From positions 17,960,723 through 18,024,722 of the forward strand of contig NC_134282.1 in NCBI RefSeq assembly GCF_949628215.1: a DNA stretch of 64,000 nt, read 5' to 3'. Position numbers and translations under genes: made by a program. This DNA comes from Phalacrocorax aristotelis. Lineage: Eukaryota > Chordata > Aves > Suliformes > Phalacrocoracidae. Under the pieces are notes generated by a model. The model saw only the letters and a program-made list of their open reading frames with translations. It did not search any database and was not told the origin of the DNA. This document shows positions 9,983 to 38,745 of this stretch, one piece after another (within the stretch, counting starts at the first letter, position 1; each line of letters opens with the position of its first letter).

Positions 9983-10486
9983 ATGGGTTGCTGGGGCCAG
10001 TGGCTGCTCTGGAGCTGGGGGCTCTGGGGGCTCTCGGTGTTGCCAGGTAAGTGCTGGTGTTGTCCGTACTGCTGCTGGTCTGACGGGGTGGCCAATACCA
10101 TCTGGGTGATAGGTGATGGGTGATGGGCTGTGAACAACTCTAGCTGCTGAAGCACTGTAAGTTTTGAACCCAAGTGCCTGGCAGGGGTTTGCCCCCATCT
10201 CTGCCTGCTGGTTGCCACAGCCTCAGCATGGTCCCCTGACCGTGGCAGGGGAAGGTGGAGGGGGACTGTGAGTCGAATGGGGACCCTCGCCCATGGAGAA
10301 GGTACTTGTCTTGCTCTCAGTATTGGTTCAGCTGCGTGTGCTGGGGTGGGGACTAGCCCTAAGGGTGATGTGTGGCCTGGGGGCACCTTTCTCCCACAGC
10401 AGGGAGAAAGGATGGGAGTGAAGGGGACCCTGGGCTGTTTATTTTTTCCCCTGCCTGGCCCTCACCAATATGCTCTGCTGCCAGTA

Positions 10487-13400
10487 CAAGCCAGGGAGAC
10501 AGGGGAGCAGCCCCTTGCCCCTGCGCTGGCCCTGGCAGAGGCGGGAAGCATGTCCTCTGGGGCCGACAGCACAAGTGCCGAGCTGCGTCAGGACCTGGGC
10601 ACGTGCCAGGTGCTCCCCACCACTGTGGCCACTCAGCTGGAGCACCCCTCTCTCACCAGCAGGACCACCTCCATGGGCAGCCGTGGCTCAGGTAAGGCCG
10701 GCAGGCAGCTGGCTGTGGGCAGGTTCTTGCCTGCTGGGGCTGCCTCATCTCTCCCCACAGGCAGCCTGGTGCCACAGGTGATGGCAAGAGCACAGGTCCC
10801 AGCCAGGGCCAGTGGTGAGCAGGGGGGGCCTCCCAGCGTGGCAGCTGTCCCCGGGGGTCCAGCAACGTAAGGCAGCCCCCAGGCAGGAGCAGGGCCTGGC
10901 ATGTTCTCTCTAGGCACTGCTAGCCACCCAGCCAGCGTCTCACCAGTTCCCACCACTGGTCAGCGCAGGCAGCTTCCCTCCCTCGTGCCAATGGGGAATG
11001 CGGTGGGTCTTGTCATGGGTGGTGGTGGTGCTGGGCCAGACACAGTCGCATCGTCCCCAGATCGCGGTGTCCCTGCTGTAATGGGGATAAGCAAACCATC
11101 ATCAAACAGCAGCACTACTTCCAAACAGGCTGTGGAAGTGTCTCTGGAGAGCATCCCTGCAGACCCAGTCCTGGAAACAACTGTCCGTGTGCAAGAGGGG
11201 ACCACGCCAAGCCACCCATGAGTGCTGCTGGTGCACTGAGAGGTGTCCCCCCAGCACCAGGCAGAGGTCTGTCCCCGCCAGTGGCACACATCCCAGCTGC
11301 TCAACCAGTGCCAGGGACAAAAGTATCTTCCTCAGTAACTGGCAAATTGACTGATGCCAATGAGTTGGTGTGGCTGGGTGATGCTGTCACTGCAGAGAGG
11401 ACACCAGGGCCAATGTGGCCCACAGTGCCATCATTACCCCAGAATGAGCACAGTACAGGGATGTCACCCCCCAGCACCAGCAAGAGCTCTGCTGAGCCAC
11501 AGGCAACTGCCATGCTCCCATCCCAGGAGATCATGCCAGGGCTGGACAAGGCCACCTCACCTCCAGACACAGCAGCCAGTATCTCTCAGGACATGGGTAG
11601 CCCCATGAAGCTGGCCACTGGCCTCCCTGTGAGTCTCCCCCATGCAGCCACAGAGGGAGCCAGGATGGTAGCGCCAGCATCTGCAGACCCCACAAGTACA
11701 GCCTCTGCAAAGATCACCTTTTCTTCCGCCACCCTTGGCATCAGCAAGGCTACAGAACCAGGGCCACATGCCTTATCCAATGCCACCCACAGCACCTTGC
11801 AGGACCACCCTGTGGCCCCTGCTCAGCCACCTCTAGCCCTTTCACCCCAGCTCCCTGGTGGTGCTGTGCCAGGTGTAGGAGAGTCACCTCCCCGCAGGCA
11901 CAGTGCAGCCCCCAGCATTGCTGGAGATAGGCTGCCTGGAGCCAACACTGTTTCTTACCTCCAGGCCACCACACCAGCTCTGGGTACACCAGCTGTGGCA
12001 ATGGATGTCACCACTGAAAAGCATGTCCTCACTGCATCGTTCCCAGCTCTGGGAAGCACCATCACTGAGCTGGTGTCCATCAGGAGCGAGTCCAGTGCCA
12101 GAGCCATAGCAGGTGCTGCTCCCCCAGAGACCAAGGCCACCCCAGTGGGGCTCAGCATGAGGCTGTCCCTCCAAGCAGCTCCTGATGGTCCTAGTGGTCT
12201 CTCTGGGGCCCACTGCAGACTCCATGGGGTCTCTGCTCCCCCCGACCCCCTTAGCAGGTCCTGGGGCCACCACAGCAGATGTGGCTGCAGGTGGATCCCC
12301 TTCAGCCAGACCCAGTGTGGCCACATCCTTGTCCTTCATGGGCGCTGGTGGTGCAAAGCCAGATGAGGCTCCTCAAGCCACTGCTGCACCAACATCTTCT
12401 CTTGGTGCATATGGCATCAGGACTGGGCCAACTGCCCATCCATCCTCCTTGCTAATGAGCAACGCTCCAGTTAGTGAAGCAGGGATAGGAACAGCATCAC
12501 TGGCCAGTGGCAATGCCACCACGATGCTGTGGGACACTGCAGCCACCCTGGCTGTGCCTGATGCATCTCCCAGCCACAGCCAGCCTGGCCCCACTGCAGG
12601 CTCAGCACCCCCAGGAGTTGGTGTCACCCCTGGACCTGCACCAGCCTCACCACTCCAGGCTTGATCCCAACACAAGGCAGCCCTGGGGGCAGAGGTTGGG
12701 TCACCCAGTGCTGCACCAGGCACAGGCATGGCTCTGCCAGGCACCCCAGGGGTACCCAGAACAGCCAGCGTCCCTGTGGCATCTCAAGCAGGCATCCCCC
12801 CTCTCCCGGAAGGCAGTGTTTCTGCAGAGATGGCTCTGGGGGTGTCCCCATCCAGCATCCCCCAAGAGATGGCAGCAGGCATGTCCCATCTCTCCCCAGC
12901 CACCCCACTGCCAGCAATGGGTGCTTCAGGTGAACCCCTCCCTGATTGGCAGCACCATGGAGCAAGCAGTGGGGATGGCATCCCTGGAGGTGGGCACAGT
13001 GGAGAACCCAGGTGCCAGTGCAGTGGGGCCGGCTCCCAGCCACATGCTCACCACCACCAGGCCATCACCAGAGCCAGCTGCCCAATGGACTGATGTGCCC
13101 AAAACCAGGCCCCCAGCAGATCTGCCTACCCTGGCTCCCAGGGGCGGGCAGGCAGCCCTGCCAGCCATGGCTAACCCCAGCCCAGCACTAGCCACTGCCA
13201 CACCCTTCCCCCACACTCCCACTGGCAAGACACCCCAGCCCATGACACCACCACCCCACAAAAACACAGCCATGGAGGGTGATAGGGGCAGGTTCCAGCT
13301 GGCAGGAGATGGCAGCACCACACAGCCAGCTCTGGGCTCAAACCCAGTTGAAAACACAAGGGTGGGTGCCATGAGAGGTACCCCCCACAATGGTGACACT

Positions 13401-15014
13401 GGCCTGGGGACAACCCCACTGGCGTCACCCCCCCGCCACAGCCAGCGTTGCTGCTTGGCCAAGCACAGCTGCATCAGACCACAGCTATCACTCTGCTGAG
13501 CCCACCACAGACATGGACACTGACATGGACTTGGGCATGGACTTGGGCATGGACACAGCTTCTCCCACCATGGGGAGCAGGACTGCAGGGCTGCCCCTGG
13601 GGTTGCCCATTCCTATAACTGGGCTGGCTGAGCTAGGCACCAGTGATGACACCCTGTCGGCACACTCTTCCCCGGACAGCAAAAGCCCTATAGCAGTGGC
13701 CATCATGGCTATGGTGTCACCACAGCTCTGGAGCCAGTTATAATACCATCCACTGGCCTCATTCACAGCACTGCTGAGCCAGATGTCAGGGTGTGTCCTC
13801 TTGTCCCCAGGAACATCTATCTGGTGGTGGCCGCAACCTGTCATCCCCAGCATCGCTGTCACTGGTACAGCAGCAGGAACAGATGATGTCAGTCTCAACA
13901 GGGTCACAACACCCCTCTCTGCTGTCCTCAGCAGTGCATCCGCTCCACACAGCCCCCATGTCACCCCAAGGCCACCGATAGCACCCACCACCCAGCCTTG
14001 AGGGCTTTCAGCCCAGTCACTGACAACAAGCCCATGCCTGTTGCCCACACAAACACATGGGAGACTACAGCCACGTCCTGGTCAGATGCCAGGAGTACCA
14101 TCACCCAGGTGGACACCACCCCATCTGAGAGCAGTGTTGAGTGGGCAGCACCCCCAGCCAGCACCAACAGCACCCATATGCCTATCTCCAACACCACCAG
14201 CACCAGCCCAGCAACCACACCAGCTGCCAGTGTGTTCCTCAGCAACACCATCCCGCCAGCCACCTCAGCCAGCAAGGAGACCTTCATGGTGGCTGGGGCC
14301 ACCACAGCCATGCCACCTGCCACAGTGAAGGCCACCAGCGCCAGCACCAGCAGTGTCCTGTCCTTTACTGTAACGCACAATGAGGCAGGCAAAGGCGGGC
14401 GATCTGTCCTATCCCCATCAGCACATACCCCCTTGATGGAAACAACTGCTGGGTTCTAGGGTATCCTCAGTCCCAGCCCTGCCATTGAGGTCCCTGGTTC
14501 ACCCCTCCCCAGCCTGCACAGCCCAGTAGAGGAGCCAGCAACATCTCCCCGTCCCTGCTTGGTGCTGGTGCAACTGGGGAGCTGGCACCCAGACAGAACC
14601 ACCCCGAGCCAGCAACAGGCACTTCTTCTGTGGCCATCAGCAACTGTGCTGTGGGACAGGCAGCAAGCACAGCACCTCCCGCCTTCTGGACACCTGACTG
14701 GGGGGAGAAAACAGCCATTGCTGCAGGCAGCACCATGGCTATCACTGCAGGCAGCACCACAGCCATCACTGCAGGCAGTACCATGGCTGTTGCACCCACA
14801 GCCCCAGTAAGCCCAGCCAAGGAGGCAGGAGATCTCCCAGACCCAGGTATTGTGGCACCAGAGAGACCACCAGTCACCACCAGCCCTGCCACCTCCCCGG
14901 CTTCTGCGTTTGGGACACAGAGGGGACCAGCCACAGCAGCAAGCACATCTGCCCACACCACCACTGGACACAGAAATCCTGCCCCTGAGCCCCGACCCAC
15001 CCATGGACTTATCA
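10487..15014 (+). pseudogene. MUC4: MUC4-like mucin (Ser/Thr/Pro/Ala) region
   Basis: The composition is that of an apomucin (T, S, P, A, G rich), but the mucin-like frame jumps. One frame runs from about 10,914 to about 12,180, another continues to the TGA at 12662 and resumes in the same frame to about 12,940, and others carry it through 13,500, 14,459 and 15,014. It ends at donor ATCA/GTAAGT (15015). Small mucin-like exons with plausible splice sites may precede it at about 10,487-10,691 and 10,761-10,814. The intact paralogue on the other strand codes the same region in one uninterrupted exon, which is the best evidence that these breaks are real damage. Confidence 0.75.
14722..14793 (+). 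repeat. 24-bp x 3 tandem repeat in the MUC4-like mucin region
   Basis: Three adjacent 24-bp units (14722-14745, 14746-14769, 14770-14793) of the form GCAGGCAGCACCATGGCTAT plus four bases encode repeats of the AGSTMAIT type. They differ at a few positions. This is the only clear short tandem repeat in this mucin exon; it lacks the long 16-residue array typical of human MUC4. Confidence 0.8.
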
Positions 15015-15362
15015 GTAAGTAGATTTTCTTCTTTCCAAAGCAAAGAGCAGGAAGGGGTTGTCAGCCAACCAAGCACTGTGATGACTGAGGGTATGGCCTG
15101 GCCCAGGGTGACTCATCTGTATTGTACATTGGGCTGCCAGATTCATGGGGAACAGTGAAATAGGACATCTGAGAGCATCCTATTCCAAATTAAAAGCTGG
15201 GTTAAAAATTGGGTTACAAGTCATCAGAGCGCTGGTCTGGCAGGGGGGGAGTGCAGGCACAGCATCTCAGCAGCAAGCAGGTGAGTTTGTCCTGGCTACA
15301 GGAAGAATGTAGCAGACTTTAACGATTTTTCACCTTTTTAATTGATCTCCCGCTCATGTCAG

Positions 15363-16740
15363 TGCCGGCGGCCTTGCTCTACCCCTTCGGCACAGAGGGA
15401 GGGGACCTAGAGTGTGTCCAGAGGACAGTGGATTTTAACTCCCCCCTGTTCAAGCCAGAGATTGGATTCCCCTTTGGGAAGTCACTGCAGGATGTTCTCT
15501 ATGTGAGTTCCTTCCTTGCCAACCACATAAGGGATGTGCAGCTTTTTTGGTAGAAAAAAAACAACATGGAAATGGAGCAGAAACTGAATTTCATCTGAAT
15601 GTTAAATTTTTGCAATTTAAAATGGCTGGTTTCTTCTCACCCATGGAGGCTAAAAGCCATCCAAGGAGCTGCCTAGGATGTCAGCAAATAATGAGTTATT
15701 TTGGTTAGTTTACAGATAATGGACAGATAATTTTTCCACCCACAGACAACTATGTCCCCTCCAACCCCAACCCACCTCCCTGGGGCTTCAGCCCCAGGTT
15801 TTGCCAATGGTGGCTGCCTTTTGGGACGACGCAGATTTCTCCCAGGGTGTCGGCACCACCTGGTAGCAGGTCAGGGTCACCAAAGATGATGTCCTGCAAG
15901 ACCCCAGCTCCCAGCTCACACATTTAACCCTCTCTCTTGCCAACCTGCAGGAGTACTCCACCCTCAGCTCTACCCGAGATGCCCTTGTCCATGACGTGGA
16001 AGCAAAGATTGAGAAATACCTGGAAAACCCCCTATATAGCAAAATGGGCCTTAAAGGTGATGTGGGAGAAGGCTCCGGCGTACCTGTCCCAGCAGGATGA
16101 CACTCAGGTGAGCAGTGGGGGACCCAGGTGGTAGAGGTGGCTGTCACCAATGATGGCTGGAGCAGGGCTGGACTGCTGGTTTCGTGCAGCTTGATGCAGG
16201 CATTTCGGGTCTCACTGCCTCAGTCTGCACTGTGGGAAGAGCAGGGGAGGCTTAGGGCATGCTAAGGGTGTGCCCTGGGTTTTTTCCAGACAAGTACCTA
16301 CCAGGCAGTCCTCACCACTGATGGGAATCAATCCTTTGACCTGCTGCTCTACCAGGATGGTGGGATGTGGTGGGACCACACCAAGCTGGCTATGGGCAAC
16401 GTGTTGATTGACTTCTGCAGGTTCTGTGCGCATGTGTGGCTGCGTTTTCGGTCAGCAGGGATTTCTCCCAGCACTATGTTGGTCCCACGGGGGATGTTAT
16501 CCCCAGGAGAGCTCAGCTCCCACCCTGGGAGCAGCCCTGTCCCATTTAACCCTCTCACCCACTAACTGCAGCAGTTCCCACCCCAGCTGCTCTATGGGGA
16601 GCGGAGGAGGGTTGTGCTGGGAGGGTGACACCAAACCTCCTCTCCCCACACAGCAGTGATGGCTATGCCCAAAATAATGAGCTGACTCAAAAGCCACCAG
16701 CTGTCAAGTACAGACCCAACCGGACAGCAGCACTGGCACC
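15363..16740 (+). pseudogene. MUC4: MUC4-like NIDO domain exons
   Basis: Exon 15363-15502 (140 nt) is intact and reads ALLYPFGTEGGDLECV then VDFNSPLFKPEIGFPFGKSL, the hallmark start of the MUC4 NIDO domain. The next exon (from about 15,713) starts FTDNGQIIFP, then shifts frame and hits TAG 15864 where the paralogue has TTT TAC CAG. The third (about 15,952-16,108) needs a frameshift between VEAKIEKYLENPL and AKWALKVMWEKAPAY. The exon at about 16,290-16,420 (TYQAVLTTDGNQSF) and the one at about 16,653-16,740 (SDGYAQNNELTQKPPA) are open. Exon lengths parallel the - strand paralogue. Confidence 0.88.
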
Positions 16741-17052
16741 GGTACAGCACTGGGGAGTCCTCAGGGTGGATGGGGATGGAGGGAGCCGTGTGCTCCACAC
16801 CAGGAGCATGTCCCCAGTGTGCATCCCTGTGAGGCGATGGGTCAGTGAAGCCACTGGTCAAGGGCTGGCCACCTAGAGCAGAGCATGGGTGTCCTGTGTC
16901 CTACTGTGGCTTGCCACAGCCACGTCAGCTCTAGAGGGAGCCTGGACACCTTGTGTGAGGTCAATGGCCAGGGACAGTTGTCCCACAGGATCCCCCTCAG
17001 CACAAGGCGAGACCCTGGCTGAGCTGTGCTGTTCTCCGGTTGCTCCCCCAGA

Positions 17053-17684
17053 TGTGCGCGGACTGTGGACATACAGGCTGGACAGTATCTCCCGGGTGAA
17101 CTATAGGCTGCGGTGCCTGGCGTGGTTGGACACTGAACCAGCTCTGGCCACCTGGAACAGCCAGCTGCCACCATGCCCCTGCTCCCAGCCCCAGGCAGAG
17201 CTGGATCCCTGCTACCGCCAGAGCAGAGGTGCCAAGCTTGGCCCTTCAAGACCAGCTGTGGGGTTGGGGGACAGCAGGGGGTCCCCTCCTGCTCTGGGGA
17301 TGGCCATGATTCCTCCACACCATTTCAGGCCCAGCGGACGCCTCTGTGAGGATGCTGTATACCGGGTCCCCCAGCCTGGCCAGAGCCAGGGTGTGGTGTC
17401 TGTTCCAAGATGGAAGCTTGCTCGAAGGCTGGCAGGAGAGACCATGTAGCCTCCCCATCCACCCCGCCACTGGTAAGTGGCCACCAGCACTCCCTCGCCT
17501 TGGAACATCCTGACCACAGAGCACTCTGGAGGCGCAATGGGGACCCCTACTGCCTTCCTCCACAGACAAGGAGCTGGAGGCTTTCAACTGGTGCTGCCAG
17601 CGTGTGGACAAGCCCCTGTTCTGTGCCAGGTTTGCTGAGAAGAGACCAAGCGTCAGCTGCGAGAGGTACATGCCGCCCACGCTT
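17053..17684 (+). pseudogene. MUC4: MUC4-like AMOP domain exons (open)
   Basis: Three exons (about 17,053-17,227, 17,330-17,471 and 17,566-17,684) encode the cysteine-rich AMOP adhesion-associated domain. Key pieces are DVRGLWTYRLDSISRVNYRL, then CPCSQPQ, then VWCLFQDGSLLEGWQERPC, then FNWCCQRVDKPLFCARF. All three are open with GT-AG sites. They align exon for exon with the - strand gene at 28,221-27,119. Confidence 0.88.
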
Positions 17685-17897
17685 GGTGAGTCCCCAGGGC
17701 TCTACCTCCTCTGTGCCTAGGTACTGAGTGGGTGGCATGGCTGTATGCAGACCCCATGCATTAACCACACTTTGCAGCATCCTGGTGGGGATTGCTAAGC
17801 ACAGCACAGCACCAGGGGCTGCTCTCCTCTGTGCAAGAACACCAGCATTTGCTTTTCTTCCTCCCCTCAAAACGGCTCTGTCTCCTTTGGACCCTAG

Positions 17898-20057
17898 CTG
17901 GTACCTTTGGGGTCCCCCACATCACCACCCTGGATGGACTCACCTACACCTTCAATGGGCTAGGAGACTTTGTCCTGCTGCTGGCCAGCAATACCCAGAC
18001 CAACTTTGTGCTGCATGGGTGCACAGCCCAAACCAGAATGGCCCGGGCCACCAACTTCATGGCCTCTGCTGCCCAGTACATCTCTGCCACCACCATAACA
18101 GTGAGTAGGAGTGACCTGGGTATCACTTTGAGTTTCTAATGGGAGAGAACCCTCTGGTAGGTTGGTCATTGCCTCTGCATCACCTACAAGTGGCTGGGAC
18201 CAGAGGAGCATCCTCTCTCCTCTTCCTGCCTTCTCCCATGAACCCAGCAAAGTCCTAATAGTGGTGGATTGGACTAAGACTAGTGAGACACACCTCTAAC
18301 AGCTCTTACAAGCTGGCCAGCATGGCCTGGAGCTCTGCAGGAACATGGTCTGCTCCATCCTCTTCATTGCACACCCTTCACCCCAACAACCGTTCTCCTG
18401 CAGACACCTTAGCACAAGCACATATTCTTCCTTGCTTTGCAGAATTGCTCCCCACACCCGTTTCAGTAAGCAAAACCTCTTGGTGTCACGAGAAGTAGCT
18501 GCTGAGCAGCGTGAGGAGGGGACTCAGAGCCTGGAGCCCACCAGCACAGCTGTCCATGCTGCCATGGTCAGCCAAGCAGTGGTAGTGGCCTGTGTGTGCC
18601 CCATGCCAGCAGTGGCAGGGGGTATCTTGCTGTCCTCTTCTGTACAACCATCAAAGCTGCTTTATCGTGTGTTTGCTGGGGTAAAGAGCACGCCAGCATG
18701 GCCCCTGGGGCGGAACCTCTCTGCCAGGGTTGGAGGAGGACATGGTTTAGCTCGAGTGTCCCCAGCATGGCGGGATGGCAGGAACAGATGAGCAGAGGGA
18801 CTGACTGGTACATCTGTGATTTGCAGGTTGAGTGAAACTTGGGGAGCCAGGGTGACCTCCAAGTCCTCCTGAACAATGAAACCATCCAGTTTTCCTATTC
18901 CCAAGGTGAATAGGATGTGCTGTTAAATGCTAAATATATCTGGGGGGGATGAGGGCTGTCCCCATCCCACAAGGGCCAGACCTGCCCAGCACAAGGGCAG
19001 CCATCCTAAGCGCCATCAAACATCTCCAACCTGCACCCTGTCTCTGACTCGGCCAGGGTGGATGGGGAGTGCTCCCCTCCCCATATTCAAGGGCATTGTT
19101 TCAGACCCCAGCCTTGCATGGACTCTCCCTCTGTGCTCTCCTCTTGCAGACACAGGCACCAAGGTGTACTACAACCCTGGTGTCTTGCCGGTCAACACCT
19201 CCTCTGTTACGGCTGTCTCTGATGGGGCCATCGCCATCTCCATCTCGGCTGCCTCCAGGATCCTCAGCGTGGTCTGCAACCTGCCCAACTGGTACCACAA
19301 CAGAACCAAGGGCCTCCTGGGTGAGGATTTCTGGCACTGCTGCACAGCCAGGGTGCAAAGTCCACTTCCCACCCTGAAGCAGGCTGGAAAATGCTGGGGG
19401 ACCATGCTTGTGAGGGCAGGGACCCCTTATGTCTAAACTAAACACCAGCCAGTGCCAGAGAAGAGGTCAGCCCCAGCATGGGTGACTGTAGTCCTCTGGT
19501 GTTGCTCACCAGGTGTGTGGGACCATGACCCTGCAGATGACTTCCACATGCCTAATGGTGCCAGCATCCCTGTGAACAGCAGCGAGGAGGAGATCTACAG
19601 CTACGGGATGACCTGTAAGTTCGGGCTCGGGATCCACCTTGATGGTCCCCGTACTCCTGCACCTTCTGACCATACTTTGGCTGGAGACATTTACACTTGC
19701 CAGAGCAGAAGTGATGCCAGGGAAGGCCTTTGATCTCCTCATTGCTCCATGAAAATGAGCCCTAAAATATAACAAAACTTAAAAACCCAAGCCCATACTC
19801 ATGGTGTTGCTCTCTTGCAGGGGCTGTTGGAGAGCACAGCCTGTTTGCTCAGCCTCTGGACTCAGTGGTAATGAACTTCACACTCATCTTCTTGGCTCAT
19901 CTGTGGCAGGAGAGTGAAAGCCAGTACCAGGTGGCAGCCTCGCAGTGCCACAGCAGCAAGGAGTGCATCTACGACTCTCTGAGCACAGAGGATGTGGCCC
20001 TGAGACTGGCCACGCAGGGCCTCACAGCTGACTTCCAGCAGAAGCAGGCAGTACTCA
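17898..20057 (+). pseudogene. MUC4: MUC4-like VWD domain exons, cleavage site altered
   Basis: The exon from 17898 reads FGVPHITTLDGLTYTFNGLG, the start of the MUC4 VWD domain. Human MUC4 has GDPH here, the autocatalytic cleavage motif; this copy has GVPH (codons 17909-17920). Further exons follow at about 18,827-18,905 (with TGA 18833), 19,150-19,321 (NRTKGLLG), 19,513-19,616 (DDFHMPNGASIPV) and 19,821-20,057. Several N-glycosylation sequons remain. Confidence 0.86.
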
Positions 20058-20372
20058 GTAAGTGGAGCAGATCCTCACCTCCAAGAGGGCATGGCTTGGG
20101 TAACCAGGCAGTGCTCTGATCCCTCTCTGGGCTCTCCTGCTCCATGTGAGGCAGAAGAGAAGTCACCAGGTTCTCAGAGTTGCATTGCCCAGCTGGTTGA
20201 TCTCCAAGTCTGGGAGGTGCCACCATGCTGTGCAATGCAAGGGCCTTTTTGGTGGACGGTCATGGCAGCATGTGCCTGGGGTCCCATTTTCACCAGGAGG
20301 GACTCAGAGCCAAGGGGTGCCAAGGCCATGTAGCAAACAACCACCTATGTGCTGGGCTGCTCTTTCCTCAGA

Positions 20373-23300: not shown

Positions 23301-23704
23301 CTGAGGCTCTATTTCCCCTGCAATCTCTATGGCTAAAAGGCTACCAGCTCCACTACGCAGGGACCATCGGCTTTGCATCTCCCCTTGCAAGATGGGCTAC
23401 TGCCAGCATGGTGGCCAGTGCCAGCACCTACCTGAGGGGCCCACGTGCAGGTAGCAGTGGTGCTGGGGATGGACAAGGCCACCGGGCACAGCTGCGTCTC
23501 TCCACAGCATCACTGCCCCTCCCTCCCCATCTACAGCTGTCTCCCCTTCTCCATCTTCTCCCCTGCGGGCTCCCGATGCGAACAACTGGCTGTCAGCCTT
23601 GCTGCCTTGCTTGGCATTTTGGTGGGAGCCCTGGCTCTGCTCTGCCTCCTGCTTATCACTGCCTGCCTGGCCTCGCACGTCTGCCGCCAGTACCAGCACC
23701 AGGG
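20373..23704 (+). pseudogene. MUC4: MUC4-like EGF-like, SEA-like and transmembrane exons
   Basis: In order: a linker exon at about 20,373; an exon from about 20,606 that runs into TAA 20745; an EGF-like exon at about 20,910-21,066 (CEDGYLGAFCQDPPDPC); a calcium-binding-type EGF exon at 21,163-21,253 (DINECTQGMVCPGNDTC) with no counterpart that I recall in human MUC4; a cysteine-rich exon at about 21,850 (GSRSCPKSFCSNRGCC) broken before 21,971; SEA-like exons ending VIQFLNEKLMGAITSAFNRW near 22,990; an EGF exon near 23,400 (KMGYCQHGGQCQHLPEG); and a hydrophobic helix (LAALLGILVGALALLCLLLI) ending at donor 23,705. A possible cytoplasmic-tail exon follows at about 24,554-24,592. Confidence 0.82.
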
Positions 23705-25988: not shown

Positions 25989-26630
25989 ATGCGTGAAAAA
26001 AATTTATTTTTCTCCCAACATTTCTGATCACGGGGTTGAATTTTGCTCTTGCACACCCAGCAAAGGCATCAAGCAAACTCTGGCTCGATCAGGAGAATTG
26101 CCCATTCTCCTGGGCACAGGGCCTGGGGACCACCTGAGGAGGGATGGTTGGGGGACAGAAGTGGGGGACAAGACAGGGCTGGCTCACAGGGCAAGCCTCG
26201 TGCACTGCAGCACTTGGGGGCTTGGCCACAGTCGATGCACACAAGGTGAAAAAACCCATTCCCTGGGTGTCAGGGGGCCAACCTCACCCCATAGCGTGGG
26301 AGGAAGAGCAGAATGCGTGTAGGACAGGGGGTGGTGGACGTGGTGGGGTGTACCTGCCTGCCTTCCCACCAGCAAGGAAGTGCCCAAGGACACCCGCTCA
26401 GCTGCAGCTGTGGAAGGGCGACTAAAGCAACTGAATTCTTGGGATGTGTCTGGGTTAGAAAAATGAACTTGTGTCAATGAAGGCAACTGCAGGCACCAGC
26501 TGAGTGAGCTGGCCTGCGTGGTGGGCAGGGGTGATGGGTGCTGGGGGGAGTGAGGGGACACAGGAGATGAGCCAGACCAAAGGACTTGGAGGATCAGCTG
26601 TGGCCTGGTTTGCAAACGTGCAACCCCCAG

Positions 26631-29600
26631 TTACTTGTCCTCTCCATCTGCAAAGAAAAGAAACAAGATTTGCCTTTCCACCTCCTCCCTGGGGGCCTGG
26701 GGCGAGCTAGGAGCCCCGAGGGAATTTCCACACAGCGACGGGGATGGGGCAGCAGGAACTAGCCAGTGGAGAGGAGACCCCTAAACCCACTCACCATTCT
26801 GCTCCTCCGAGTTGCTCTCTGCCTCCTCTGAGGAACCTGCTGGGGGTTGCAAGAAAACCCATATCAGCTCACACTGACAACTACGTTAGCTGCCATGTTC
26901 CTCTCCTGCCGGTGTTATCCCCAGACTATGCTGGTGGTTGTGTGCTACGGGAGATGCCTATCCCCAACCCTGTGTAGCCCAGGGCATGGCACAACCTACA
27001 CATGAGCACCCCGTCTGCCCTGAGCTCTTGCTGTCTTAACCATGGCGTGGCTGGGATGTTCCCCCGAGCCCTGGGCACCAAGATGGCATCACGCAGTACA
27101 CACAGGCTGCAAACCCACCTGTGCCAGGCAAACGGTATCCTTCACAGCCAATCTTTGGTCTCTTCTCACTGTAGTGGGCGCAGAGGCGGGCACTGCCCGC
27201 CTGGTTACAGCACCAGTCGTACAACTTCAGCTCCTGGTCTGGAGACAAAAATTAGAGTAAGGGGCTGAAGGGGAGAGGAGAGGGAGACGGGCTGCCTCTG
27301 GGCAGGAAGGGCGCTTGCCTTGGCTTTTGGCAGGTCCACGCTCCCGCTGAGGGTAACAGCGTGTCAGGAAATAGGTTGGCATGGAGATTAAAACTATTTA
27401 TAGGCTACAGTGATGACAGCCTCAGCCAGGAGATGCCAGGGCTGGCTCTGCTTACCACGGTAGGGGGATGCCTGTCTGGAGGGCCTCCAGTATCTCTCCT
27501 GCCGCCCCTCGATGAGCTGGCTGTGGCTGTCGTACAGGCAGCGGACACCGGCACCGTGCTGATTGGGGGAGGTGGAGTGCAGCATGGAGACACGGGCAGC
27601 CCACCAGCCTGCAACAGGGTGGCAGTGAGCCTTGGCACAGCTCCCCCCAGCCACCATCCCTGCCCCAGGGCGATGAGTGGGCCCAGGGTTAGCTCCTAGT
27701 TATCCATCAGTCCCAGCACATCACCTCTGGTGCTACAGGCAGTAAAGGCTGATGGAGACCATCCATGTGGTCCCCCAAGGTGAGACCCCAGTGCTGGGGA
27801 GAGTCCATCCCTGCTGTCCCCACGCAGCTTAGACAGCTCTGTCCAGTCTAACAAGACAGAGACTGGTCAGCCCTCATTCCTCCCCATTTTCCCTGTCTCT
27901 GCAGAGAAGGGCAGCCCCCCACTCATTTTCCTTGACATCCCTTGCCCACCCAGCCAGGAGGGACCTCAGCCACCCTTGCAGGGGAGATGTGGAGGGACAG
28001 CTTGGGGATGAGGAGGGTAGCGAAGCAGTATGTCCACTTGCCTCCCCGGCTGCTCCTGAAGCGCAGGTCCTGCTGTCCTTGCTGCAGGGAGCAGGGGCAG
28101 GCAGGCAGGCCCTGGCTCCACACACGTGGCTCCTGCTGCCGCCCTGTCCACGCCAGGCACTTTAGCCGGTAGTTGACCCTCACACGGCTCTCCAGCTTGT
28201 AAATCCACAGCCCACGGAGGTCTGAACGGGGAGAGAAACCACGAGTTGTCACCTCCAGCCAAGGGAACCGCAGGGGCAGTTTTGGCTCAAGGAGAGAGGT
28301 GAGTGATGCTAATGTTGGAAGCTAAGCCCACACTGACTCCCAGCCATGGGACCCCACGCTTAACAGCCACCCAATGGCAGGGTAACAGAGGGAGAGGCTC
28401 TTGTCAAAGAAGAAAGCCTTGGGACAGAGCCATTGCAACAAAAAGGGTCCGTGGACACATCAAGGATGTTTCAGCTTCAGGGCATAGCTAGTACTCAGGG
28501 AAAGCATTTTATTTGTTTGGGGGGAAAACCTGGCCCTGGCTGAACTCAGTGAGAGTCTTGCCACACTGGCAGGAGGATTTTAACCCCTGGGAATGTCCCC
28601 CTCCCCTTGCAGCCCTTCCCCAACCCCAAGAGGCTGTGCAAACCCACTCCAGCTGTGCATCACTACCTGTGTTGTAGCCCCTGAACTGGTCAGGGCGATA
28701 CTTAGCGGCTGGAGGTCTCTGAGTCAGGTCATCATTGTGATAAAAGCCATCCCCACTGCATGCAGAGGAAAGGGGAAAAATCAGAGGTTGCTCTTCCTGT
28801 CTGGGGTTATCCCAGCCCCAGCCCCAGCCTGCCCTTCAGCCACCCTGATCCTGAGCTGGCAGGACCCCACAGCACTGAAATCACAGCTCTGGGGACAGGA
28901 GGGCAAAGGCAACAGCTCCCCCAGTCCACTGCCTCCTCTCTACAGGGTTGGTTAGTTTTGGGTGCAAACACGCCTGCTGCATCATGGGCTGAACCTGCGA
29001 ACAGATCAAGACCACCATGAGCAGCTTCCATGGTTTCCAGCGTCTTGCAGGGCAATACAGAGCGGAAACCCATGAGCAGTCATGCACAGGCAAGCACACA
29101 CACATGCTTGTGCTGCCCACGCTTCCCATCCCAGCCAGATTTTCCTTACCCAGATTCAGCAAACGGGACAAGACGTAATGTGAGGAGGCAGGAAGCAACT
29201 GCTCTAGCCCAGAGGCAGAAATCCCTTTGCTTGACTGGTGCAAAGTTCAGCAAACACCCCCTATTCCACAGCCCTTTCACCCAAACCACCAGGATGCTGC
29301 GGCCCCGGGACCCCAGTGGGAGATCTTACAACAAGCACAGCCCAGCAAGTCAGCATGCTGCAGCATGATCCAGCCACTAACAGGGCAAATTCTGTTGTAA
29401 GACCCCCATGTTATGCTATATGGGTGTGCAGACCCCATCTGGGCTGCCCTCATCCTTGCAGGGCACTTCATGGGGCATGGGAGGGAGGGGTTAAATTAGC
29501 TGGAGAAAAGGGTGGGAAGCAGCCCAGTGCTTGAAGAAGGCAGGGGTAGGGTGCTGAGCCTGCTGTACCTGGTGTAGCCGATGAGCACATTTGTGGCAGT

Positions 29601-32600
29601 GAGCCTGGTATAATCCCATCGCATGCCTCCCTCCTGGTACAGCATCAGGACATAGGACCTGAAGCCATCAGTGGTCAGGATGGCCTGGTATGTGACCGTC
29701 TGGAGAGAAGCATTGCAGACAGGTAAGAAAGTGAGCAAAGCTGTTGGCTTTAAAATTAGGGGTGTGGGTCAGTGCTTGCTGAGGAATGTCAGGGATGAGG
29801 TCCTGATGTGCAAGGCAAACACAGCCTAGTCTGGTTTGCATTTTGCATGGAAAATATGATGCTTTTACTTTGATGCTGCTCCATGAGAAACCAAATTCAC
29901 CCAATTTTATGCTCCTGAAGAACAGTGTTTCTGGTGCACAATAAACTTGCACCACATTAAAGAGAAAGATTTTATGGAGCAGAGGGAGTTCCGCTAAAGA
30001 TGTCCACAAAAAAAAAACCCTGAAAACCACCAAAACATGGGCACAGACCAGTTCTTTTTGGCAAAAGACTTCAAGACTGACCTTTTTCACAAAAGTGGTT
30101 CTTATTTTCAGGCGCAGATAAGGCGGTTGCCCATTGGTCTTGGGTTTGGGTTTTTTTGACAACTCAACAAGCCCTTGAGTTCCATCAGCCCCTTACCCTC
30201 TGGGTGTCAGTCCATGCTGAGTAGGCAGGTGCCTTCTCCCAGGTGATCTTCAGGGTCCAGGCTGCAGAGTAGGAGGACCTCAGGTACCGCTGAATCTTTG
30301 CTTCCACGTCACGGACGAACGGAGGCTTGGCCGTGTTGAGGGTGGGGAACTCCTGTATGTTGGGTACACCCACGTCTGCATTAGTTCCCAGTAGGGCAAA
30401 GACAGGTCTAGATTGGGGTCATGCATGGAGCACTGCAACTAAGGGTCTGGATGAGATTTGGATGGTTCAAGGGGTGCCTTCACCATAGGACCAACAGCTC
30501 TTAGATTTGGCCCAGAAAAGGGAAACACTGCTCATGGGCTCCATCAATTACACATCTCAAGGGGCACCTGCAGAATAGGTGACGAGTTTATCATAAAAAG
30601 CTGTTTCATGCAACCATGCACCCAGGTGGCTTCACTCACCTGGTAAAAGGTGGTGCCAACACCTCTGGAGAAGTCGGCGTTGTCCCAGAACACAGCAATC
30701 ATGGGAACCTCCTCATGACCGTTGAAACCCCTGGGAGGAGGGTTGGGGTACGTGAAGATGCTGTTGTCCGAGGCTGGGAAAATTATTTGTCCATTGTCTG
30801 TAAACTGAGCAGAGGGATCCCTCCATCAGGTGAGGTCAGGACCAACTGGACCTCACATGGGTGTGGCAGCCCTCCCATCTCCAAGCCCACTTTAAGCAAC
30901 ACCCAAGGAAGTTCACCACCTGCCACTGCCAAAATGGCTACAAAGTCACCTCCTGCTGCAAACAGGCCCGGCAGCATCCCAATTGATTTACCCCCACAAG
31001 GGTCCCATCCTAGGCATCTGGCCTCTGGCACCTCCCCCACGTTTTTGGGGGACGGCCGCTTGCCCAACAACAAGTCAAGCCAAGGCAGACTCACATAGAG
31101 AGAGTCGCGCAGGGTTTTCCCAAACGGAAATCCAGTCTCAGGTTTGAAAAGCGGAGAATTAAAGTCCACCCTTCTTTCCACATACTCTCTATCATTTTCC
31201 TTTGCTCCGTACCTGTAGAGGGGCACAGCTGCAACTGGAAAAGAAAACAAAAATAAACCACCCTGAAAACACACTTACAGCAAAGCCTTGGTCTGTGCCA
31301 AAAATTCAAAGGGCTGAAATTATTTTGCTTCCAAAGGAACACAGCCTGGGCAGCAGTAGGATGGGGGACACTGCCAATAGCTGCCTGGGACACCCTGCAT
31401 GTCACCTTCCCATGCAGGAGCTTGCTTCCACCCCTTTCACATACACCGCTGCCCCAAACCCGCTGTGATGGCCTTTGCAGTCACTGTCCCCTCCTGCTCC
31501 AGCCCTGTTGGGACACCACACTGAAGGACTGCCATTGGGAGTGGAAAAACATTGTACAGGACTGTGGTAGGGGGACAGCAGGGAATAAAACACCCACAGC
31601 TCTTTGTAGAAATGTTTACAGCCTCCAGCTCCCTATTTATGGCTGTTAAATAAAACAAAGCATTTGGAGGGGATGGGTTTTCCAGCTGACAGGGCCATAC
31701 TTGAAGGCAGGCTCAGGCTGCCAAAAATGCAAGCTCATGTGCAAGAGCACCTCATGGTGCATCTCCCCCAGGGGTCCTGGCCCCAAATAGCCCCTTCTGT
31801 CTCTGGGCACAGTCCGTCGGGAGGCCAGATGTGCTCCTCCTGCCTGGGCTGCTGCACGAGCATCACATACCTGCAGGGCCGGGCAGCAGGGTCCGGGTGG
31901 CCACAGGCCCTCCTGGCAGAGCTGGAAACACGGGGGACGATGCATGGGAGGTGACAGTGGCTGCTCCTGGTCTGGGGAGCGACTTCTGGCTCCCAGGGAG
32001 GGGGGCTGGTGGAGCCGGGCTGGCAACAGCTGGGCTGCAGGACACGGCTGGGCTCACAGTGGCTGGGGACAACCTCTGGGCTCCCCCCTGGCCTGGGAAG
32101 GCTGTGGAGAGGCCCACCCCAACAGCAGCAGAGGCTCTGTTTGCCAGGCCAGTGGTCAGCTCACCACCCAAGAACGGCTGCAGGGTGGCAGGTGATGAGC
32201 CAGCAGTATGTTCTGGCCCCAGGATCTTTAGTCTGGGGCTGCCAGCAGCAATCTCAGTGGGAGGAAGGTCAGGGAGCCCTGGGCTTCCCCCAGGGAGGGA
32301 GCGAGCAGGAGTCTCCATGGCTGCCTCGGCTCCAGTCACACCAGGAAGGAGCCGAGTCATGTTCCCTCTCCCTGCCATCACACTGGGGAGCACGGCACTC
32401 GGTTCCACTGGAATGGGCCTGTCAGCATCCCTGGAGGGGACCCCGGGGCTTCCCGGCTGGTGAGGAGGCAGGAGCAGGGCAGGCCCCCTCAGCACAGCAG
32501 CCCCCAGCTCTCCCCTTTCCCCTGCAGAGGACCCCGCTGCCAACTCACGTGCTGAAAGCAGAGTGGAAAGCCCAGGAGCGACGGACCCCCTCTCTGCAGT

Positions 32601-35600
32601 GTTTTCTCTCTGTGGAGCAGAAGGCAGCGCCGGGGCAGTGTTGGGGTACACAGGGGCACGGGGGGATGCTTCTCCCAAAGGCACTGGCATTCCTGAGGCC
32701 ACCTCATCTTCAAGAGACCATCTCTGAGTGGCTCCAGCATCTCCTGTCAGCCCACCCAGTGCCCCTGGTACCAGGGGTCTGCTCCCACTCTGGGTGCCAG
32801 GGGCAGAGTGGGGGTCCCCATTGGGTGCCAGCCCCGAGTTCAGTCCATGCCCAGGAAGAAGCAGAGAAGCAGCCAGTGAGGCAGCTGTGCTATCAGAGAC
32901 ACTGCTGCTATCTGGAGCCACAGGGACCAGGGGCTGCATCTCCTGGGGGGAGGCGAGGGCAGACGGTGCCAGTGCTCCTGATGCAATCTGTACAATGGCT
33001 CCTGCGCCCTCTCCCAGGCTGGCACCAGGGGAAGGTCCCCTGTTCGACGAGACTCCTTCAGGCAGCTCCACCACATTGACTTGGCTCAGTTTTGCATTAG
33101 AAAGTCCAAGATCAGCACCACTCTGGACACCAGGGGCAGACATGGGGTGTTCCTCCAGGCCAGCAGCCTCCAAGCCTGTGCTCAAGCCATCACCATCTCC
33201 ACCAGCTCCAGGAATGCTTGCTCCATTAGTGGCCTCACCAACCATCCCAGGTGATGAAGACTCTTCTGTAGATGCAGAGGAAGATGCAGAGTGCAGGATG
33301 GTTCCCATTTCTCCATCAGGGGCTCCTGAACCAGCTGGTCCCCCTCTGGCAGGGGCCTGGGACTGCCCCAGGGAACCCCTGTCACCAGCCATTTCACCTG
33401 CTCCTTCTGCTGCAGCAGGAGGGACGCCTGGCCCAGCACCCAGGGAGGGCTGCAGAGCTCCAGGAGCACTACCCGTTCCTCCAAGGGCAATCTGGCTGGC
33501 TGGATCCAAAATGGAGGATGCTGCAACCACACCACTGGGAGAAGCAGGACCAGACAAGGAACCTGCTCTGGGTAGCTGATCCATCCCAGCTGCCATCCCG
33601 CTGCCTGCAGCAGAGCTCAAGGATGGTTCAAACCCAGTCTCGCTGACTGCTTCTCCCAGCACCCGCTGTGCCACACCAGCTCCGAGTCCCTCTTCTCCTG
33701 GCAGCTTCAAGTTTGTGCCGAGCTGGTCCCCAAGGACAGATGATGGGAGTCCTGCTGGTCCGTAAGGTGCTGAGCTGGGGGCATCCCATACTGAGTTCAA
33801 GCCAGTGCCTGCTCCTTTGTCTCCAGGGAGATCTGCTCCTTGGGGACCACCAGCTGCTGTCCCCCATGGCTGCAACCCACCAAGGGATGGAGGCACTGGT
33901 GCTCCCTGGGCAGCACTGAGGTCAGGGCTCGCCGGTGCCTCTGCCACAGACATGGGGAAGGCTGCACCCCCCGGGGACAGGTAAGCAGCAGCCCCAGGAG
34001 TGCTGGGGGATTCACTGGGCAAGTCCCTTGGTCCTTCAGCCCCTGAGAGGTCAGGCTCCAGCCTAGCACTTCCAGGATGTGCAGGGCCAGGCAGGGACAC
34101 TTGTTCCAGTGACGGGGCTGCTCCTACTCCTGCCCCATCCCCAAAAGCTGATGGAGGGGACAGTTCAGCATTCACCAAAGCCCCAGTTCCTTCTGCCGGC
34201 AGCTCTCCAGTGTTAGCAGGCTCCTGCTCAATGGGACTTTCAGTCTCTGGGTTTCCTGCCTTTGCTACATCCCCTGCACTCTCAGCCCCCTGCACCACAG
34301 TGAGCTCTGGGCCAGTTTCACTGTCCAAAGAGGCTGCAGACAGGTTGTCAGGGCCAGTGGCTGCAGCTGGGATGAGTCCTGCTCCATCACCCCTCGAAAT
34401 GGAGGATGCTGCAACCAGATCACTGGGAGAAGCAGGACCAGACAAGGAACCTGCTCTGGGTAGCTGATCCATCCCAGCTGCCATCCCGCTGCCTGCAGCA
34501 GAGCTCAAGGATGGTTCAAACCCAGTCTCGCTGACTGCTTCTCCCAGCACCCGCTGTGCCACACCAGCTCCAAGTCCCTCTTCTCCTGGCAGCTTCAAGT
34601 TTGTGCCGAGCTGGTCCCCAAGGACAGATGATGGGAGTCCTGCTGGTCCGTAAGGTGCTGAGCTGGGGGCATCCCATACTGAGTTCAAGCCAGTGCCTGC
34701 TCCTTTGTCTCCAGGGAGATCTGCTCCTTGGGGACCACCAGCTGCTGTCCCCCATGGCTGCAACCCACCAAGGGATGGAGGCACTGGTGCTCCCTGGGCA
34801 GCACTGAGGTCAGGGCTCGCCGGTGCCTCTGCCACAGACATGGGGAAGGCTGCACCCCCCGGGGACAGGTAAGCAGCAGCCCCAGGAGTGCTGGGGGATT
34901 CACTGGGCAAGTCCCTTGGTCCTTCAGCCCCTGAGAGGTCAGGCTCCAGCCTAGCACTTCCAGGATGTGCAGGGCCAGGCAGGGACACTTGTTCCAGTGA
35001 CGGGGCTGCTCCTACTCCTGCCCCATCCCCAAAAGCTGATGGAGGGGACAGTTCAGCATTCACCAAAGCCCCAGTTCCTCCTGCTGGCAGCTCTCCAATG
35101 TTAGCAGGCTCCTGCTGAGTGGTGATGCTTGAAGGACTCATGTCACTCTTAGTATCTGCATAAGGACTGCCATCCCCTGGGCCTCCTGCCTGTGCCATCT
35201 CCCCTGCACCCTCGGCCCCCTGAGCCAGGACCCCAGCATGAGGCCATATCAGTCCATCAGGTACAAAAGATGCTGGGCTGGGGGCATCTGAAGCTGAATG
35301 CAATCCAGTGCTGGGTCCATCAGCTCCCTGGGGAGCACCATATGCTGTCCCCCATGGCTGCAACCCTCTGAGGGATGGAAACATGGGTGGTCCTGTGGCA
35401 GCACCAAGGTCAGGGCTCGCTGGTGTCTCTGCCCCATCATCAGCTGCCGGCAGGGTGCCAGCCCCCAGGGGTGGGTAACCAGCCCCTGGAGTGCTGGGGG
35501 TGCCTGTGGGGGACAGCAGGGCAGTAGAAAGCAGCTGTGGCTGTTCTCCAGTGGGGCTCTGCCATGGGGCAGGCTGCAGGGATGGCTCTGCCAGACCCAC

Positions 35601-38600
35601 AGCCCCCACATCCCCTGCAAGCAGTGTGGTGGCCGGGGCTGGGGGATTCATGTCATTCTGTGCACCAATGGGAACCTTTGGGGCCAGCAGCGAGGTGGCT
35701 GTGCCCACTGTCACTGTGGGTGTCTCACTGGCTGCGAGCAATGCAGCTGAACCAGGACTGTCCGATGTCACGTCAGGAGCTCCCTGCCCATCCCCACCAC
35801 CGGCCAGCACCAGTGAAGCAGCTGGGCTCAGTGCAGCCTGGCCAGGGAGAATGGGGTTCTCCCCTGGATTTCCCACTGCTCCTGACACCATTGTGCTCTC
35901 CAGAGGCAGGAGGGACGAGGCAGCTGTGCTGAATGCACCGTTTACTGCATCTCCTGCATCTCTGGGCACTGAAGGTGAGGGACTTTCCTCAGCAGCTGGG
36001 GCCATTTCTCCCACTGGCTCTGGGGTGATGCCTACAGCCCAGCTCATCGCCCCATCCTGCTGGGCTGTGAGCAGTGCCGCGGCACCAGGGCTGGGGCTCG
36101 AGGAGTTGGCACTGGCTTTGCTTTCAATATCCGCAGCCAGGGTTACGCCTTCCTCAACTGCTCCCATGGCTGTGGTCAGCCCTTGGTTTGGCAGCACGGT
36201 GACACCAGCGCCCATGGGGCTGCCAGTAGTTGGCTGTGCCCCCCAGACGGCTGCTGGTGCAGGAGTGGTGGGGAGGGGCATAGCACCCATGGTGGAGTCT
36301 AGATCTTCTGCTCCTCTGGTCACAGCCATGAGAACATCCTCCTTCATGTCTGCCAAGAGAGGGGTGGTCCCCAGGGGCACATCGAGAGCAGCCCCTGTTA
36401 CATCATGCTCAACTTCTGGGGTGACAGTGGGGTGCTGTGCAGAGATGGCGGCAGTGGTCATGGCTGCAGTGGGAGCAGCTGAACCCCTCTCGTTACCCTG
36501 AGTTGCATTAAGAGGCTGGGTCACATTCATCAAAGTTGGTACTGTAGAGCCATATTCGCTCGTCACTGTCACAAAAGTGTCTGGCTCAGCCCCAGGAGGG
36601 AAGGATGGGCTTGCCTGGCTCCCTGCAAGGATGCTCTCAGCTATCTCAGCATCGGCCGCCGGAGTGCTTGTCTCCACAGTGCCCATCACCAGGGCATGGG
36701 GCCCCTCACTCTCTGCCATGATGGGAGAAGCTGTCCCCACAGCAAATGGCCCCTCAGTAGTGACAGGGACGGCGGCAGCAGCCCTGAGCCCTGCAGAGAA
36801 GCACAAAGTGGAGTGTTACACTGGGTGCTGGAGCCAGCAGCCTGACAGGCTCAGCCATGCTTCCCCATCAGCTTAGAATCAGGACACTCCCACCCCTTCT
36901 TAAACCCTACAGCCTCCTCCTGCAGCCTTACAAGGCTCTGGCTGAAGTGCCAAGGCTAAGCTGCCTTGGGCACAGCACTGCACAGCAGCTTTTGCATCCC
37001 CAGCATCAGCAGCTGCCAGCTGAGACAAGACACAGCTCATCACAGGTCAGGGAGAGATGCTGGTGCAAGCACAGAGGCAAAGGCAGCTGCTGTAACCCAG
37101 CCCAGTTACACTGGGGATGGTACTGCCTGGCCACTAGGAAGACCTGGGGCCCAGTAAGTCTAGTTCATAGCCCCATGGGTGTCTGTGGAGCTCTGCTGCC
37201 CGAGGACAGCTCTCAGCCCTCTTTTGCCTCACTGCAGGAACAGCCCTGAGTGCAATCTCTTCTGCAGAGCCTGGGGGGGTTCTTGCATTTTTTCACCTTC
37301 TGGGTGTCTGAGGGACATTTACATACACTTTACACAAAGCCCTTAGGCATATAGGATAGCCAGGGCTTAGTGAGACAGTCCTTGACTGCAAATGGCCTCT
37401 AACCTGCTGCAGTTAAAGCAGGTTCATTAAACCTCTCCCAGGGTGGGAATCTGCCTGCTCCTGCCCCCATCCTGCTTGCCCCTAGCTGGGTGCAGGCACC
37501 AGGGGGTCCCTGCCCATGTAGGGAATATTCACAGGCTCCCAGGACCAAGGCTTACAGCTCCCTCCTCTTGCTGCCAAAATCCTGCCCCACATCCAGGAGC
37601 TCACTAAAAGGAGAAGCAGCCACCACCCCACATCCCAGGCATTTCTCCCAGCACCCACTGGCACCCATGGGTGATGTTTCTCCCAGTCTTATATTTAGGA
37701 CAGGGATGCGGGCTCTGGGGAGACCAAGCTGCCACTGCCATTGGCTCCAGGAGGAGCTGGGTGGATCTGCTGACGCTTGGCTTTAGGCAGCTGCAATTAG
37801 GGGAGACAAAGGGCACCCCAAGGGCAAGACCCATCACGGTTTCACTGCAGCCCAACAGCCCAAGCCTGTTCCCCACCCTGGTGCTCCAGTTCATCAGGTT
37901 CCCCCTGCCAGACAGCCAGATCCCCCTGCAGCGGAGGTGCCTGCAACCACACCGCAGTCTCAGCTCATTAGCTTGCGGACAGCTTGTGCCAGAGTCATTA
38001 ATGAACATTATCTCCTATGCCAGACCAGTCCTCAAGGGGTCCATCTTCCTGCAGCCCCCTGTTCCCCCTCACAGCAGACTGCTTCCTTGTCATCTTCTGC
38101 CACCAAAATCAGCTCTTTGCACCATGACCCCCTCAGCCAGAGGAGCTCAGCTGCTTCCCTCCCCATATCAGGGAAAACAAAGCACTTCAGTCAAGTCCCC
38201 CCAGGTTAGTTTGGCACACTCCACCCCAGTAAATCCATGTTTTATCTTAATTCTTCCACGCGGAACAGGAAACACCACCTACCCCACACCACCCATTCAT
38301 GGGAAGCTTGTTGAAGAGGGGCCCCAACATGGAACACGAGCATTTGCTCTTCTCCAGGATGTGGGAGGGATGGGAGCATCCCTAGGGTCCTGCGCTGCTG
38401 GCTGGCTTCCCTTGGCTCCCTTGCTGGAGGGGTACGCAGCTGTACACAGGCTTCTGGGCTGGGCTTTTGCCTTTCCCATGGGTCCACGCCTGCAACGAGC
38501 CCCTCAGGGTGATGCCTGACCCCTAAAACAATTTTCTAGCTCTTTGGCTGCAATGTGTTGCAAGGACTGGCTGTAAGAGGAGTTTCCAGTGCAGCCAGGG

Positions 38601-38745
38601 GGGAAAAGCATCCCACGAGCATACCTGCTCTGCCCTGCAAGGGCTCGGGTAGCACATGTGCTAGCAGAAAAATATGGAACGTACCGTACAGAATCCATAC
38701 GCAGCACCCCACGAAGGTGGAAAGTGTCCATCCCCTTGTCCCCAT
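26631..38745 (-). CDS. MUC4-related secreted mucin with NIDO and AMOP domains
   Basis: This is an intact paralogue of MUC4 inverted beside it. Exons (- strand): 38745-38685 signal peptide (MGTRGWTLSTFVGCCVWILY), 36790-31871 mucin, 31234-31095, 30804-30640, 30352-30197 and 29699-29569 NIDO (VDFNSPLFKPETGFPFGKTL; FTDNGQIIFPASDNSIFTYP), 28755-28667, 28221-28042, 27608-27456 and 27238-27119 AMOP (DLRGLWIYKLESRVRVNYRL; LYDWCCNQAGSARLCAHYSE), 26836-26795 and 26647-26631 tail. The lengths sum to 6,174 nt, an unbroken frame of 2,057 aa. One junction (28042) uses a GC donor, GAG/GCAAGT. The protein ends in an acidic tail (SSEEAESNSEEQN then DGEDK) with no VWD, EGF or membrane helix, so it should be secreted. 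Mammalian MUC4 is membrane-bound, so function here is inferred only as a luminal O-glycosylated mucin with adhesion-type domains. Confidence 0.9.
31871..36790 (-). CDS. Giant mucin-domain exon of the NIDO-AMOP mucin
   Basis: One 4,920-nt exon encodes about 1,640 residues rich in Ala, Pro, Ser, Gly and Thr with almost no cysteine, expected to carry dense O-glycans. The acceptor is TTCTCTGCAG at 36791-36800 and the donor is CAG/GTATGT at 31870; both ends are phase 1. The Thr-rich part is N-terminal. The middle is built of long diverged repeats sharing LGGLQPWGTAAGGPQGAD-type units, including a near-identical 720-bp pair. It is unusually rich in acidic residues (Asp, Glu) and Gly for a classical Thr/Ser mucin. 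Confidence 0.9.
33510..35116 (-). repeat. Two 0.72-kb near-identical direct repeats (888-bp period) in the mucin exon
   Basis: Segment 33510-34228 repeats at 34398-35116 at a constant offset of 888 bp (296 codons, so in frame), with only a handful of differences by eye. A 168-bp unique spacer separates them. A more diverged third relative lies at about 35,250-35,530 (the same PPMFPSLRGLQPWGTAYGAP-type segment). The near identity implies a recent unequal exchange or ongoing gene conversion. Confidence 0.93.
36791..38684 (-). other. First intron of the NIDO-AMOP mucin
   Basis: A 1.9-kb phase-1 intron separates the signal-peptide exon from the mucin exon, a common mucin layout. The donor is GTACGT at 38684. 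A short AT-richer patch with TAAT cores lies at 37,970-38,010. Nothing else was recognised. Confidence 0.75.

Follow-up and report, generated by a model that had tools for sequence, protein, structure and literature searches.

We analysed a window of 64,000 nt (C7:17,960,723-18,024,722) from the 1.279-Gb, 352-contig genome of Phalacrocorax aristotelis, in which two loci that carry the NIDO and AMOP domains lie tail to tail. Very probably, the locus on the + strand is a pseudogene of the membrane mucin gene MUC4, and the locus on the − strand is an old inverted duplicate of the 5′ and middle part of MUC4 that is still intact. That the two loci form a paralogous NIDO-AMOP pair is confirmed. An all-against-all comparison of the 1,557 six-frame, stop-to-stop open reading frames (ORFs) of at least 25 residues in the window paired + 15335-17687 with − 31253-27117, collinear in reverse and with best E values of 5e-18 and 8e-18, and in the raw DNA eight of eight NIDO-AMOP exons were paired between + 15363-17685 and − 31234-27119 in the same order, which bears out the tail-to-tail arrangement described in an earlier note on this DNA. 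The matching exon lengths of that note, with a first NIDO-region exon (n1) of 140 nt in both copies, were also seen, and identity holds in three of the eight pairs (n1, 140/140; e4, 131/131; e8, 120/120), the unequal ones (−/+) being 165/161, 156/157, 89/88, 180/177 and 153/144 nt. All eight splice acceptors of these shared exons are AG in both copies; the donors are GT in 8/8 cases in the + copy and in 7/8 in the − copy, the eighth being GC (GCAAGT).

Searching the whole genome with the NIDO-AMOP part of the − protein returned 15 rows, comprising eight of its own exons, six of the + copy, and one of noise (C2, E 0.08), and scoring of the best candidates from this search, together with AMOP and NIDO profile searches, found no third NIDO-AMOP locus in the 1.28-Gb genome. 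The AMOP profile matched at three places elsewhere (C15 in two rows, C3, and C9) and the NIDO profile at five, distinct from the AMOP places, with no NIDO match of that genome search near the C15, C3, and C9 loci. Given that the AMOP profile missed the split AMOP exons of the window itself, that survey is incomplete, and the − protein search is what carries weight for the two-loci result. The three AMOP places may be SUSD2 and the isthmins, which are AMOP proteins; these would have AMOP in common with our pair, but lack a NIDO match nearby. A search of solved structures gave a single match (E 0.58), regarded as chance. The differences between the big exons and between the 3′ ends of the two loci might suggest unrelated users of NIDO and AMOP that came to be adjacent by chance; against this stand the collinearity of all eight exons, three of them of equal length, the 55% identity of the copies, and the failure to find another such locus in the genome, and we give this idea practically no credence.

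The + locus adjoins, on the same strand, an open ORF of 513 codons (5418-6956; Pfam PF11555, Mig-6, 4e-39), our left neighbour and frame-integrity control, which we recognised by eye and take to be the large exon of TNK2, a gene that has the Mig-6 domain. In the human order, MUC4 follows TNK2, and the + copy stands in the MUC4 position, as had been claimed for it. Its layout after TNK2 is that of a signal exon, a long exon rich in serine, threonine, and proline (S/T/P), and then NIDO, AMOP, VWD, EGF, and transmembrane (TM) exons, so that the VWD, EGF, and TM parts previously attributed to it are all present. The exon edges of the VWD-TM part were set by eye, guided by the human MUC4 layout.

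The signal-peptide exon (9983-10046, 64 nt) begins with the expected ATG at 9983 and has a hydrophobic reading and a GTAAGT donor. The long S/T/P-rich exon of about 4.1 kb (10924-15014, start approximate) is broken, its best path needing seven frame switches and three stops. S, T, P, and A are abundant in it, with S+T peaking at 42% in one of the three pieces examined, and the composition rule for a proline-, threonine-, and serine-rich (PTS) mucin domain, used here with a threshold of 40% S+T and 5% P per 100 residues, holds in 13/91 windows of that piece and in 0/78 and 0/381 windows of the other two. In the NIDO region, n1 (15363-15502) and e4 (16290-16420) are open, with 29/46 and 26/43 residues identical to the − copy, and e4 alone is a Pfam NIDO match (4e-8, 33.9 bits, cut-off 25). 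Between and after them, e2 (15709-15869, 161 nt vs. 165 nt in the − copy) has a frameshift and an in-frame TAG, e3 (15951-16107), which pairs with its − exon, has a frameshift, and e5 (16654-16741, 88 nt vs. 89 nt) has a 1-nt frameshift. The AMOP exons e6 (17052-17228), e7 (17329-17472), and e8 (17566-17685) are all open. Further on, the first VWD exon (17898-18100) and three VWD-region exons (19150-19320, 19513-19614, and 19821-20057) are open, and the VWD-region exon at 18827-18905 carries an in-frame TGA; the exon at 20605-20783 is stopped in all three frames, by a TAA in the frame that fits best. Two EGF exons (20907-21066 and 21163-21252, the second matching EGF_CA at 1.4e-10) are open, a cysteine-rich exon (21851-22032) is frameshifted and stopped in all three frames, and the last EGF exon (23293-23450) has two frame switches and again a stop in every frame. 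The TM exon (23537-23704) is open, with a best 19-residue mean hydropathy of 2.96, and sent to Pfam alone, it gave one weak, unrelated match. Altogether, 10 of the 14 exons examined in the VWD-TM part keep an open frame and three are stopped in every frame.

Counted together, the several stops and frameshifts reported earlier come to about 19 lesions across the 7,188 coding nt of the + copy (10 from the frame-path program, four from the NIDO-AMOP exons, and five from the VWD-TM exons); the 6,115 coding nt of the − copy show none. On the frame path, the long S/T/P exon scores 96; by comparison, 20 dinucleotide-shuffled versions gave −190 ± 21, the highest being −153, and four control stretches covering both strands ranged from −129 down to −272. 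On these sequence features, the + locus appears to be a MUC4 gene that has decayed into a pseudogene here.

Long repetitive S/T exons are error-prone, and the lesions were read from one assembly, so one may ask whether MUC4 is in fact intact and the lesions arose in assembly or base calling. They are nevertheless spread across the S/T, NIDO, VWD, and EGF exons, with TAG, TGA, and TAA stops among them, and the same window holds the open TNK2 exon and the lesion-free − copy, whose 4.9-kb exon is GC-rich and contains a nearly perfect repeat of 732 bp; such an imbalance has a chance of 8e-6 if lesions are independent and equally likely in both copies. We therefore consider assembly error very improbable as an account of the + locus. 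Another possibility is that exon skipping or a late start lets the + gene yield a shorter working protein, given that the AMOP, first VWD, and TM exons keep an open frame, as eight of eight shared + exons keep their AG and GT ends. We regard this too as improbable, since by their exon lengths the joint skipping of e4 and e5 breaks the frame, and three exons in the VWD-EGF part are stopped in every frame.

A few points weigh against a MUC4 pseudogene beside an intact duplicate. Both AMOP scores lie under the Pfam cut-off of 25, with 23.3 bits (7.4e-5) in the spliced − protein and 19.2 bits (0.0014) in the spliced + exons e6-e9, even if the AMOP exons of the two copies pair with one another, and the VWD match of the same + splice and first VWD exon is also under its own cut-off (0.0013, 19.5 of 22.9 bits). 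When six + exons were submitted to Pfam singly, n1, one VWD-region exon (19152-19319), and the first EGF exon (20907-21065) had no match. The lesion count of the VWD-TM part depends on exon boundaries placed by eye with the MUC4 layout as a guide, that of the frame path varies with the chosen penalties and uses a residue model derived from the − exon, and, as all lesion calls come from one assembly of one genome, any single lesion may be an assembly error. On the − side, the e6 donor is a non-canonical GC, and the 3′ end of the gene consists of candidates only, either a read-through stop or a further exon. The dS between the copies is near saturation and thus uncertain, and the split of + and − is unrooted; the dN/dS is a pairwise value over the whole separate history, and not one of the − copy after the decay of the + copy.

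The − gene, for its part, reads without a single stop. Its signal-peptide exon (38685-38745) starts with the ATG at 38745, as expected, 170 nt downstream of a TATA-like box (38915), and is followed by an open exon of 4,920 nt (31871-36790) rich in Ala, Gly, Pro, and Ser, by the NIDO-region exons (31234-31095, 30804-30640, 30352-30197, and 29699-29569), by e5 at the end of NIDO (28667-28755), and by the AMOP exons (28221-28042, 27608-27456, and 27238-27119). Donors are GT in 9/10 cases, the exception being that of e6 at 28042, where the + copy has GT. The openness described in the earlier note stands, but its figure of 2,057 codons does not: the ten exons (6,115 nt) give 2,038 stop-free codons when counted as far as the final splice donor that the copies share, and 2,065 when e8 is extended to the stop at 27039, a further last exon being the alternative. 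Poly-A signals of the − strand lie at 26008, 25988, and 25931. The spliced protein matches Pfam NIDO at 4.4e-34. The 1,642 open codons of the big exon have a chance of 3e-22 at its base composition, with 45 and 65 stops in the other two sense frames. Its composition is 17% A, 15% G, 13% P, 11% S, and 6% T, with five N-glycosylation motifs, and since S+T reaches no more than 25% per 100 residues, with a PTS domain found in 0/1,541 windows, it does not qualify as a mucin domain under the usual rule of composition. Within this exon, a 732-bp repeat (33504-34235 and 34392-35123) at an offset of 888 bp (296 codons) differs at 13 positions, of which six are close to either end and the remaining one lies in the middle part, as in a recent in-frame expansion, and near 35272-35483 there is a further copy that has diverged more; because the offset is a whole number of codons, the big exon appears to vary in length by whole codons, like repeat exons.

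We looked for the VWD, EGF, and TM parts on the − strand between 39000 and 23700, where five of the six queries (vwd1, vwd2, EGFca, SEA-like, and TM) had best rows of E 0.43-6.5, and where, as a positive control, the first NIDO exon of the + copy recovered its − partner at 1.3e-16. The sixth query, the cysteine-rich first EGF exon, matched − 31394-31335 at E 0.005 with composition correction off; we rejected this match as chance, because the same query gives 1.7e-5 antisense to the + VWD region. As to a membrane anchor, the best hydropathy was 1.25 among the 22 of 36 candidate last exons long enough for the measure, no 19-residue stretch reached 1.6 in any frame of − 27118-23700 (vs. 2.96 in the + TM exon), and no 19-residue stretch of the − protein beyond residue 30 exceeded 1.34.

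Across the ten exon pieces, 183 of 335 residues are identical between the copies (54.6%), and the codon positions differ by 33% (first), 30% (second), and 47% (third). Over the same 335 codons, dS is 1.36 and dN 0.36. A high dS of this kind argues strongly against a young origin, suggesting an old duplication, and a dN this far below dS indicates that both copies were probably held by purifying selection through most of their separate history. As the + exons still align well despite their lesions, the decay would be late; about 19 lesions in 7.2 kb correspond very roughly to 10 million years at bird neutral rates, an estimate to which we give no weight. The earlier note had suggested that a secreted relative replaced a membrane mucin in this lineage, and an intact − gene beside a broken MUC4 would agree with that. 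However, with 55% identity and a dS of about 1.4 the duplication is old, so the − gene is no recent substitute for MUC4, and it has no PTS domain, nor were TM, EGF, or VWD parts found in it. Functional replacement is thus possible but unsupported, and we think it unlikely.

Most likely, then, an inverted duplication of the 5′ and middle part of MUC4, as the NIDO-AMOP exon homology suggests, would have given rise to the − locus, with a product made of a signal peptide, an Ala/Gly/Pro/Ser-rich region of 1,640 residues, and a NIDO-AMOP head. Judging from the absence of VWD, EGF, and TM parts on the − strand, this protein would be secreted, as a soluble or matrix-bound epithelial protein, in which the NIDO-AMOP head may bind and the long flexible region may serve as a spacer. 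Both genes would have coexisted for long under selection, and the later loss of MUC4 would have taken away the membrane anchor, the EGF modules, and the S/T/P domain, for which the − gene would be no like-for-like substitute. More tentatively, and with less than even confidence, we suggest that the mucin cluster on the TNK2 side in birds has an undescribed, ancient, MUC4-derived gene for a secreted NIDO-AMOP protein without the membrane, EGF, and mucin parts, whose parent membrane mucin later died in at least one bird lineage, leaving the soluble relative beside MUC20-like genes.

MUC4 is an epithelial shield. The + locus is like human and chicken MUC4 in its position by TNK2 (as in the human order), its S/T/P exon, and its NIDO, AMOP, VWD, EGF, and TM parts, but many of its exons are broken, and its first VWD exon reads GVPH where MUC4 carries GDPH. 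STK33, reportedly a unitary pseudogene of birds, is likewise a single-copy gene that decayed in place, and only here does an intact inverted paralogue adjoin. GDPH is a putative cleavage site in MUC4, a protein that attracts study because it partners ErbB2 at the cell surface (PMC5354666), and the abstract of the same paper calls the functions of NIDO and AMOP unclear; a cattle mucin study describes MUC4 as having a NIDO whose function is unknown, an AMOP, and a cysteine-free VWD (PMC3056801). In the MUC4/Y splice form, which served there for work on signalling by NIDO, AMOP, and vWD, deletion of NIDO or AMOP altered signalling (PMC5354666), so these domains matter apart from the mucin repeat. 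MUC4/Y is built with vWD as well as EGF and TM, none of which was found in the − gene. In chicken, a Muc4 gene with AMOP, VWD, EGF, and TM was predicted on chromosome 9, with 0/23 exons supported by expressed sequence tags, and the available text of that chicken mucin account, whose authors state that their method is poor at finding mucins without VWD or SEA domains, mentions no second NIDO-AMOP gene (PMC1552070). A literature search, in the texts within its reach, found neither a MUC4 pseudogene in birds nor the − gene, which is weak evidence of absence in print. If the more tentative reading holds, nature would here have run an experiment in which the adhesive head is parted from the ErbB-binding portion of MUC4. 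A bird without MUC4 would mean either that its role can be dispensed with or that other mucins cover it. With a NIDO-AMOP-only relative that occurs in nature, one could also examine what both domains do in isolation from the mucin, VWD, and EGF parts, and the annotation of "MUC4" in birds may conflate two genes, one of them broken.

Farther to the right, two small S/T-rich genes lie in tandem on the − strand (43600-46393 and about 47900-49890), with a similar signal exon (MAGQRG...) and S/T-rich exons in which the PTS rule holds in 82/90 and 101/226 windows. The last two exons of the first gene, spliced, scored 52 against an unverified rendering of part of the human MUC20 C-terminus, vs. 19.6 ± 3.7 for 5,000 shuffles, none of which reached 52; without splicing, the ORF ranks only fifth in the window. 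These genes may be homologues of MUC20. Should this be confirmed, the genome has MUC20, and the − MUC4-like gene lies between MUC4 and MUC20. We had also considered the − gene itself as MUC20, given that it lies on the side of MUC4 where MUC20 is found, and rejected this because it carries NIDO-AMOP and the better MUC20 lead lies farther on. MUC20 is close to MUC4 on human 3q29 (PMC6149062) and has no chicken entry in the mucin table of PMC1552070.

In these small genes, a 201-bp repeat, 97% identical and apparently intronic, is found at 45498-45698 and 49099-49299, while their S/T-exon stretches are 78-81% alike, far below that repeat, which points to gene conversion or a later local copy. 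The second gene also has a VNTR-like (variable number of tandem repeats) 30-bp tandem repeat of 3.3 copies at 48333-48431. Still on the right of the NIDO-AMOP pair, we recognised by eye what we take to be CPD-photolyase-like exons (+, about 50.5-53.2 kb) and Rubicon-like exons (−, about 56-60 kb). A GGGACC hexamer array of about 20 copies (50219-50338) stands directly before the photolyase-like gene.

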